Positions 653 through 2,461 of a stretch of 17,635 nucleotides of DNA are shown here, piece after piece. Each line of letters starts with the position of its first letter. Position 1 is the stretch's first letter. The stretch comes from JACRDV01 sp024860865 [NCBI: Methanobacteriota archaeon]. GTDB taxonomy: Archaea; JACRDV01. The notes below the pieces were generated by a model. It was given only the letters and a program-made list of their open reading frames with translations. It was not told where the DNA came from and did not search any database. The position numbers and the translations under genes are program-made. The DNA lies in NCBI GenBank assembly GCA_024860865.1, contig JACRDV010000123.1, positions 1-17,635 on the forward strand, in the 5' to 3' direction.

Positions 653-2461
653 ATGATTCGTCAACTTATAGTGGCAGTGCTCGGTCATGTCGATCACGGA
701 ACGCGTTAAAGCTATAGCTTAACGCCCGGTAAGACAAGTTTACTCGACAAGATCAGAGGCACAGCGGTTGCTGAAAGAGAGGCGGGTGCAATAACCCAGC
801 ATATAGGAGCAACAGAAATTCCAATTGAAGTTATCAAAAAAATTTGTGGTCCATTTATCGAACAGCTTAAAGCAAAGATAACAATACCAGGTCTACTCTT
901 CATAGATACTCCGGGTCATCGAGCTTTTACAAATTTAAGAAGGAGAGGTGGTGCGTTAGCGGATTTAGCGATTTTAGTCGTTGATGTCACTGCTGGCTTT
1001 CAGCCTCAAACGATTGAAGCGATTAGCATTCTTAAGAGATACAAAACGCCGTTCATTATCGCTGCTAATAAAATTGATTTGATTTACAAATGGCGTATCT
1101 TTGAAACGACTTCTTTTCTTGAAAGCTTTAAAAAACAAGAATTAGAAGTGCAAGGGTATCTTGAAAAGAAAATCTATGAGATGGTTGGAAAACTTTACGA
1201 GCAAGGTTTTAATTCAGAGCGCTTTGACCGAGTAAAGGATTTCACTAAACAGTTAGCAATTGTGCCGGTTAGTGCCAAAACGGGAGAGGGTATACCTGAA
1301 CTTTTAATGATGCTCACCGGCTTAGCTCAACAATTCCTTGAGCAACAGCTCAAGATTGAGGTTACTGGGCCTGGAAAAGCCACAGTGCTTGAAGTCAAAG
1401 AAGAAGTTGGCCTAGGAAAAACCATCGATACAATTCTCTATGATGGTACTATTAGAAAGGGAGAAACAATTGTAATTGGTGGACTAAAAGAACCTATCGA
1501 AACAAAAGTCCGGTCAATTCTAAAACCTCAACCATTAGACGAAATTCGAGATCCGCGATTTAAATTTAAATCAGTTAATGAAGTTCAAGCTGCAGCAGGT
1601 ATTAAAATTTCAGCTCCGAATTTAGATAATGCAATTGCAGGAGCTCCATTAAGGATTGTTAGAGAAGAAAGTGAGATTGAAAAATTAAAGGAAGAAGTTC
1701 AAAAGGAAATAGAAGAAGTAAGAATTGAAACGGACATAACCGGAATTATTTTAAAGGCTGATGCTATTGGTTCGCTTGAGGCGTTAGTCAATGAACTCAA
1801 GGGATTAAATATCCCAATTAGAATTGCAGATGTTGGGGATGTTTCAAAGCGAGATATAGTTGAAGCTCATACTGTTAAAGAGACTGACCCTATTAAGGGA
1901 ATAGTTCTTGCATTCAATGTTAAAATTTTGCCTGATGCAAAGGTTGAGGCAGAGAGATTAGGCGTTCTAGTTTTAGCTGGAGATATAATTTATAAGTTAA
2001 TTGAGGATTATCAAAAGTGGGCTGAAGAGACTAGAAAAGAAATGATCAGAAAACAACTCGAGGCTATTGTAAGACCTGCGAAAATTAAGCTATTGCCTGG
2101 CTTTGTTTTTCACGTGAGCAAACCTGCCATAGTAGGGGTTGAAGTTTTAGCCGGTGCGATAAAACCCGAGTATAAACTAATCAAAAAAGATGGCTATTTA
2201 GTGGGCGAATTAAAGAGTATTCAGGATAAGGGGCAATCGCTGAAAGAGGCATCGATTGGGCAGAAAATAGCTATTTCAATAGAAGGACCAACCGTTGGGC
2301 GACAAATCAAAGAAGGGGATGTTCTTTATACCGATATTCCGCCTCGACAAATTGATTTGATTGAGGAAAAACTGAAAGATGTTTTAACGGCTGAAGAAAT
2401 TCAAACTTTGCAGGAAATTAAACAAATTAAAGAGAAATTAGCAGCTGAGGCAAAGAAATAG
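653..2461 (+). CDS. infB: Translation initiation factor aIF5B (IF2 family), reading frame interrupted by a 30-nt intron-like insert
   Basis: aIF5B is the GTPase promoting ribosomal subunit joining. ATG 653 follows a Shine-Dalgarno-like GAGG at 642-645 and starts MIRQLIVAVLGHVDHG. After GGA 698-700 a 30-nt segment (701-730) contains in-frame TAA 707-709. From AAG 731 the same frame continues as KTSLLDKIRG, then DTPGH (G3) and NKID (G4), beta-barrel domains, and a C-terminal domain ending at TAG 2459-2461. Without the insert the product is 592 residues, a normal archaeal aIF5B length, with intact P-loop GHVDHGKTS. Read straight through, translation stops after 18 residues. No other disruption is visible over 1.7 kb, so this is not a decaying gene. 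Removal of the insert as a bulge-helix-bulge intron is inferred; the start and family assignment are firm. The UPF0282 gene follows 4 nt after the stop. Confidence 0.93.
701..730 (+). other. Candidate 30-nt bulge-helix-bulge intron in the infB P-loop
   Basis: The insert separates codons GGA (698-700) and AAG (731-733). Inner helix: 703-709 pairs with 719-725 (7 bp), continued by 711-712/717-718 past a bulged A710, closed by a short A/T loop. Three unpaired bases 700-702 (AAC) follow on the 5' side. A central helix 697-699/726-728 (CGG/CCG) is extended by an A696-G729 mismatch, giving a 4-position helix. Three unpaired bases 730-732 (TAA) lie on the 3' side, then outer pairs C695-G733 and T694-A734. 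This is the 3-4-3 bulge-helix-bulge geometry cut by archaeal splicing endonuclease. Cutting symmetrically within both bulges, after either the first or the second base, removes 701-730 or 702-731 and gives the same product GGA-AAG-ACA (Gly-Lys-Thr). Confidence 0.82.

Follow-up and report, generated by a model that had tools for sequence, protein, structure and literature searches.

An intron of bulge-helix-bulge (BHB) type in an archaeal pre-mRNA, that of cbf5 in Crenarchaeota, was reportedly described by Watanabe in 2002. The element considered here is a 30-nucleotide insert in infB, the gene for translation initiation factor aIF5B, in a stretch of 17,635 nucleotides (the window) from the archaeon JACRDV01 sp024860865 (NCBI: Methanobacteriota archaeon; contig JACRDV010000123.1 of assembly GCA_024860865.1). 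Judged from its sequence, the insert is very probably a BHB pre-mRNA intron that the splicing endonuclease EndA would excise, with RtcB or a different RNA ligase sealing the exons. As far as the available text of two papers goes, cbf5 is the sole confirmed coding-region case among archaeal mRNAs, to which one case in a 5' untranslated region (5'UTR) of Haloferax is added, and earlier work had predicted introns in other protein genes as well (PMC2738675, PMC7714728).

The cbf5 introns resemble the window insert in being short, in residing in a conserved protein gene and in their cut between bulge nucleotides 2 and 3, which for the window insert is predicted, and the portion of PMC2738675 drawn on here includes examples of 33, 36 and 39 bp. 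The genes are infB and rtcB in the present case, however, and the lineages are others. An earlier, sequence-only reading had called the size of the insert unusual; small it is, but the published cbf5 lengths show that it is not unique. The BHB intron of Haloferax HVO_1309 is an mRNA substrate of EndA, as the window insert is predicted to be, but it lies in the 5'UTR (PMC7714728, in part) rather than in a coding region. Archaeal tRNA introns have the same BHB architecture and are presumably processed by the same enzymes, whereas the window insert is set in an mRNA without a tRNA body. The literature searched, whose coverage was partial and took in few subscription papers, yielded no description of an intron in infB or rtcB of archaea (among the sources, in the parts available, were PMC13149111, PMC12397907, PMC6379350, PMC3655853, PMC12558985 and PMC7531240).

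The infB gene spans 653-2461 of the plus strand, and its frame is open except for the insert, which falls inside the P-loop between GHVDHG and KTSLLD. The sequence-only reading had taken the gene to be complete and conserved apart from 30 nucleotides with a TAA, and the open frame and profile matches (TIGR00491/PRK04004) bear this out; the helices, bulges and mismatch that it described are also all present. The features are as follows.

653..701, plus strand: infB exon 1, MIRQLIVAVLGHVDHG plus base 1 of the Lys codon; its spliced N-terminus lies on the aIF-2 profile, and it ends at the predicted 5' cut
694..695, plus strand: 5' strand of the outer helix, pairing with 733-734 (2 bp only)
696..699, plus strand: 5' (exon) strand of the central helix, an A696-G729 mismatch followed by CGG
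700..702, plus strand: 5' bulge AAC in the BHB fit, predicted cut after 701
702..731, plus strand: predicted BHB intron of 30 nucleotides, symmetric 3-4-3 cut
703..709, plus strand: 5' strand of the inner helix in the fold, 7 bp
707..709, plus strand: in-frame TAA stop within the intron, read from the sequence
719..725, plus strand: 3' strand of the inner helix in the fold, 7 bp
726..729, plus strand: 3' (intron) strand of the central helix in the BHB fit
730..732, plus strand: 3' bulge TAA in the BHB fit, predicted cut after 731
732..2461, plus strand: infB exon 2, the rest of aIF5B, matching TIGR00491/PRK04004
733..734, plus strand: 3' strand of the outer helix in the BHB fit

Two 3-nucleotide bulges are therefore present around a 4-nucleotide central helix at the exon-intron borders, with one A-G mismatch. 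Excision of 702-731 gives the junction 701/732 and the protein GHVDHG-KTSLLD, and thereby reproduces the claim that cleavage in the bulges yields exactly GGA-AAG-ACA. The same protein results from deleting any 30 nucleotides whose first base lies between 697 and 702; the intron is placed at 702-731 because the published rule cuts between the second and third bulge nucleotides (Yokobori 2009, PMC2738675, in part). The sequence-only reading had left a choice between 700/731 and 701/732, and the second of these is the one that the rule gives. The alignment to aIF-2 (TIGR00491) starts at position 2 for the spliced N-terminus and at position 17 for the sequence from 731 alone. A single one of 5,000 shuffled window introns equals this fit when the register is kept (p 0.0004), and the minimum free energy of 694-734 has z = -2.19, with 4 of 200 shuffles as good. 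Rfam models, those of group I and II introns included, gave no window match at gathering score.

The strongest evidence for the predicted intron is the comparison with other genomes, which were gathered by following matches, so that insert frequencies among them are biased. A first infB search of 394 genomes (380 with a match) covered the best matches, leaving stops in lower-ranking ones unseen; among the matches listed, stops within infB occur only in the window genome (G000) and in G115. When G115 and its relatives were searched (129 genomes, 120 with a match), stops appeared in eight: G115, G394-G397, G407, G421 and G426. The inserts of G115 (30 nucleotides) and of G394, G395 and G396 (33 nucleotides) interrupt the same switch I position, GGI^TQHIGA; they differ in sequence, and their central helices are free of mismatches (GGCA/TGCT and GGCA/TGCC). 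The f139 genomes G397, G407, G421 and G426 carry 29 nucleotides after the GK of the P-loop (GK^T), two nucleotides from the window's junction, with one central mismatch and without an outer helix. In all nine genomes, that of the window included, the infB protein is recovered by strict 3-4-3 excision. The predicted infB introns thus occupy three positions in three lineages: in the infB tree G115 groups with G394-G396 (support 100/98), this clade has the f139 genomes as its sister group (98/89), and the window sequence branches elsewhere. A comparison across infB genes, in line with what the sequence-only reading had proposed, shows structure kept while sequence varies, but only for the other inserts; no close relative was returned for the window's own intron, relatives sharing the domain only, so that its comparative support comes from the other introns.

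A second gene of the window genome, rtcB (contig C15, L090 89-119), is split by 31 nucleotides at HWG-Y-GFPIGG. The insert has a mismatch-free central helix (GGGG/CTCC), an inner helix of 10 bp and no outer helix; it contains a stop, its length is not a multiple of three, and its removal gives HWGYGFPIGG. A first rtcB search (158 genomes, 153 with a match, best matches only, with stops in later ones unseen) led to the recognition in G059 of 32 nucleotides that split the Tyr codon at exactly the same base (T^AY, site A). A further search of G059 and relatives covered 127 genomes (118 with a match), from which 17 were chosen as seemingly interrupted or as controls, and a strict fit was obtained in 14 of them: G504, G506, G511, G513-G515, G517, G520, G521, G546, G559, G561, G577 and G580. 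G505 and G516 lack an insert at sites A and B, and in G507 the motif region is missing, with no fit. Among G115 and relatives (129 genomes, 121 with an rtcB match), 30 nucleotides interrupt LPD^AHQG in G403, G411, G415 and G431, while rtcB of G115 itself is open.

Altogether rtcB has 25 predicted introns in 20 genomes, including that of the window. Twelve of them share one nucleotide, site A, where they are 29-32 nucleotides long; five lie at site B (the Tyr codon of GIGYD, T^AT), four at LPD^AHQG and two at H^W, the G559 insert being at this HW junction and not at site A, and G577 and G580 have one further intron each near site B. A central helix of 4 bp without mismatch is found in 21 of the 25. 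Many apparent "site B" fits, and the site A fits of G505, G506 and G511, were chance fits of 22-117 nucleotides in intact stretches and were dropped. Two rtcB introns each occur in G513 (L118), G514 (L122), G515 (L123), G577 (L126) and G580 (L127), and the four LPD^AHQG carriers (G431, G411, G415 and G403; L151-L154) come from one probably Asgard genus. In G072 (L113), rtcB has an in-frame TAG away from the intron sites, and its motif is intact.

The infB and rtcB sets together comprise 34 introns in 28 genomes, 33 of them of 29-33 nucleotides and one, in G580, of 12 nucleotides. In 34 of 34 inserts the conserved protein is recovered by a strict 3-4-3 cut that tolerates no more than one central mismatch; the central helix has no mismatch in 25 and one in nine. 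A shuffle test for individual introns, which keeps the register fixed and counts central mismatches and uninterrupted inner pairs, was applied to 26 of the 34 (the f145 introns, those of G521 and G546 and both of G580 lie outside it) and gave p<=0.0018 for 25, with p = 0.0094 for that of G559. The intron strand of the central helix pairs with exon codons, and the two covary: in the 12 distinct central helices that 26 introns provide, 44 of 48 cells are paired, as against 26.3 +/- 3.3 pairs when intron strands are redealt (maximum 39 in 5,000 shuffles, a null that ignores relatedness). Across these predicted introns, structure is conserved and sequence is not. The proposal of the sequence-only reading, an mRNA intron in an essential initiation factor gene, is accordingly supported by the 34 restoring inserts, the covariation and the presence of EndA and RtcB genes.

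Covariation bears as well on programmed translational bypassing, which is known from phage T4 gene 60 and the yeast mitochondrial byps. Ribosomes on the window mRNA would stall at Gly GGA (698-700), hop 30 nucleotides over the hairpin and land at Gly GGT (728-730); the Gly codons flanking the insert, and the hairpin with a stop just downstream, suit such a process. Yet bypassing predicts neither 3-nucleotide bulges at both edges nor covariation between intron and exon. Matched take-off and landing codons are a feature of the window (Gly/Gly) that G115 and rtcB site A do not share: a stop codon would precede the landing point in G115, and each of the 12 inserts at site A falls within a Tyr codon (T^AY) and measures 29-32 nucleotides. 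Bypassing is thus very unlikely.

Recurrence of the inserts likewise speaks to the idea of a pseudogene or assembly error in which the 30 nucleotides are meaningless, as a fragmented assembly and a stop inside the insert might lead one to suspect. Comparable inserts are found in further genomes, BHB geometry fits an insert of exactly 30 nucleotides, and outside it the frame is open and well conserved. A second intact infB elsewhere, which the sequence-only reading had named as part of a possible refutation, was not found: the window genome (1.54 Mb, 160 contigs, 92% complete) has a single match at E<=1e-60. This explanation has an even slimmer chance of being correct. Scarcely any credence can be given to a third, in which readthrough of the stop would let the insert be translated as a 10-residue loop of aIF5B. 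Its length is a multiple of three, but such an addition would disrupt the G1 loop by parting GHVDHG from KTS; this loop is uninterrupted in 35 of 37 other archaeal infB loci, the other two having intein-like open insertions, and the rtcB insert of the same genome, at 31 nucleotides, shifts the frame.

By the BHB intron mechanism preferred here, the 30 nucleotides would fold, together with some adjoining exon bases of the transcript, into a 3-4-3 BHB; EndA would cleave both bulges behind their second nucleotide, on the 3' side of 701 and of 731; the exons would be sealed by RtcB, or by a different RNA ligase, to give GGA-AAG-ACA and with it the P-loop GHVDHGKTS; and the 30-nucleotide piece would be released. 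Cleavage, ligation and use of the spliced mRNA are steps that we infer. The host encodes both a splicing endonuclease and a ligase. Its EndA gene, on contig C51 (L071), specifies 182 amino acids, with best PDB chain matches to 5x89 and 1a79, the latter of which we take to be the M. jannaschii enzyme, and its RtcB gene is the one on C15 that is itself interrupted. The endA gene adjoins that of tryptophanyl-tRNA synthetase, an arrangement also described for Haloferax (PMC7714728, in part).

ARAGORN, run with introns allowed, called intron-bearing tRNAs in 14 of 22 tRNA loci, although L047 and L051 hold one and the same pair of tRNAs and the L053, L062 and L063 calls are questionable. The BHB finder agrees with the ARAGORN intron length in two of the loci (L045 and L051), there too with one central mismatch. 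This tRNA set (L044-L065) is rich in introns, and several of its tRNAs escape ARAGORN unless introns are allowed.

Several observations weigh against the intron interpretation. The window BHB is among the weaker ones, with the A696-G729 mismatch and an outer helix of only 2 bp, and minimum-energy folds leave 733-734 unpaired or paired elsewhere. No outer pair is present in 8 of the 34 introns (rtcB site A of G000, G546, G561 and G577, and the four f139 infB introns), and the window's own intron is without a sister for comparison among the genomes returned. One EndA gene, of single-subunit size, was found in the window genome, while efficient removal of relaxed BHBs is ascribed, in the available part of PMC6379350, only to (alpha-beta)2 and epsilon2 enzymes, and alpha'2 EndA is described as limited to canonical BHBs (PMC12397907, in part). 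A second infB, or an EndA beta subunit, could also be missing from the fragmented, 92% complete assembly.

The cbf5 BHBs, as the portion of PMC2738675 drawn on here describes them, are mostly unconventional and tied to hetero-oligomeric EndA; by comparison, the rtcB introns are largely mismatch-free, and one EndA gene is found in the window genome and in most f40 genomes. The two EndA subunit genes of the cbf5 type are thus not seen in the window genome. A survey for EndA genes (PF01974) in 32 genomes, a sample outside which the f145 genomes fall, gave one in G000 and in 12 of 15 f40 genomes, two each in G115, G394-G397 and G421, and one each in G407 and G426; the EndA of G059 is in two fragments on two contigs. 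None was found in G507 and G517 (f40) or in G559 (outside f40). Throughout the survey, further subunits may be divergent or unassembled. If the single EndA enzymes are homomeric, mRNA BHBs would not need hetero-oligomeric EndA.

Scans for BHB shapes covered 200,728 bases of the window genome (20 contig stretches plus the window) and then, with L071 and L090, 209,071 bases. The window insert ties for best score among 297 candidates with BHB shape and coding-like flanks. The scan is incomplete, in that its coding filter dropped the rtcB insert of L090, whose score of 30 would have topped the list; that no third intron was found in the 209,071 bases is consequently a weak negative. Four other candidates were set aside: three are intact genes, namely those for rps27ae (in the window), a subtilase (L108) and FeoB (L095), and the fourth, L109 886-919, marks where two open reading frames meet. 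For G513 (320,576 bases), correct and wrong bulge sizes gave similar numbers of candidates (174 versus 142-175; at score>=24, 5 versus 2-7), and its two rtcB introns are absent from the 14 candidates listed, again a weak negative.

In the rtcB tree the intron-free G505 is sister to the intron-bearing G059 (100/97), which suggests that the absence in G505 is a local loss. G000 stands apart from the f40 genomes despite its intron at the same nucleotide, and its nearest neighbor in the tree, G072, is intron-free; therefore either introns entered site A more than once at the same base, or an ancient intron there has been lost on many occasions. In the infB tree G059 groups with named Woesearchaeota (99/86), and G115, G394-397 and relatives lie in a clade with G010 (99/97). 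Relatives of G115 as returned also include the f145 genomes, which cluster with G115 in the rtcB tree (97/93); the hosts in this assemblage, G115, G394-397, their relatives and f145, are probably Asgard archaea.

A wider interpretation is about as likely to be right as wrong: that BHB micro-introns of about 30 nucleotides exist outside Crenarchaeota and that the most strongly conserved motifs of a small set of RNA and translation genes have acquired them repeatedly, at sites that inteins also use, in hosts that are partly Asgard, with rtcB dependent on itself. The motifs entered, which share that even standing, would be G1 and switch I of aIF5B and HxGYGFP and GxGYDxNCG of RtcB. Because rtcB carries introns, synthesis of the ligase would depend on its own activity, and it may be speculated that this forms a feedback or locking circuit. 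If the introns are real, the one in rtcB links the splicing ligase with its own substrate, essential genes are being missed or split in archaeal gene calling, and tRNA-type introns of protein genes arose many times. That they occur in the genes for aIF5B and the splicing ligase, and in hosts that include a relative of Woesearchaeota and probable Asgard archaea, suggests that archaea have more split protein genes than has been thought, and presence or absence between sister genomes makes intron gain and loss directly testable.

The 12-nucleotide insert of G580 rtcB (L127, minus strand; 367-378 of the reverse complement) has 3-4-3 geometry with an outer helix of 5 bp and practically no inner helix. 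Putative introns of the same size, 12 bp, are on record for rudivirus SIRV1 (Peng 2004, as cited in PMC2738675, in part); those lie in virus genes, and splicing is a prediction in both cases. Archaeal IF2 and RtcB also have intein-like insertions at or within a few codons of the intron sites, read directly for infB and deduced from open-frame lengths in the listed infB and rtcB matches. Inteins differ from the introns described here in that they are spliced as protein, run to hundreds of residues and keep an open reading frame. Long, apparently intein-like open frames in rtcB resume around profile positions 28 and 43-49, directly at intron sites or close to them. Intein-like open insertions in aIF5B at HGK^T were read in L016, L023, L068 and L069, and in L079 (G447 C90) the infB match falls into two pieces around query 268-275.
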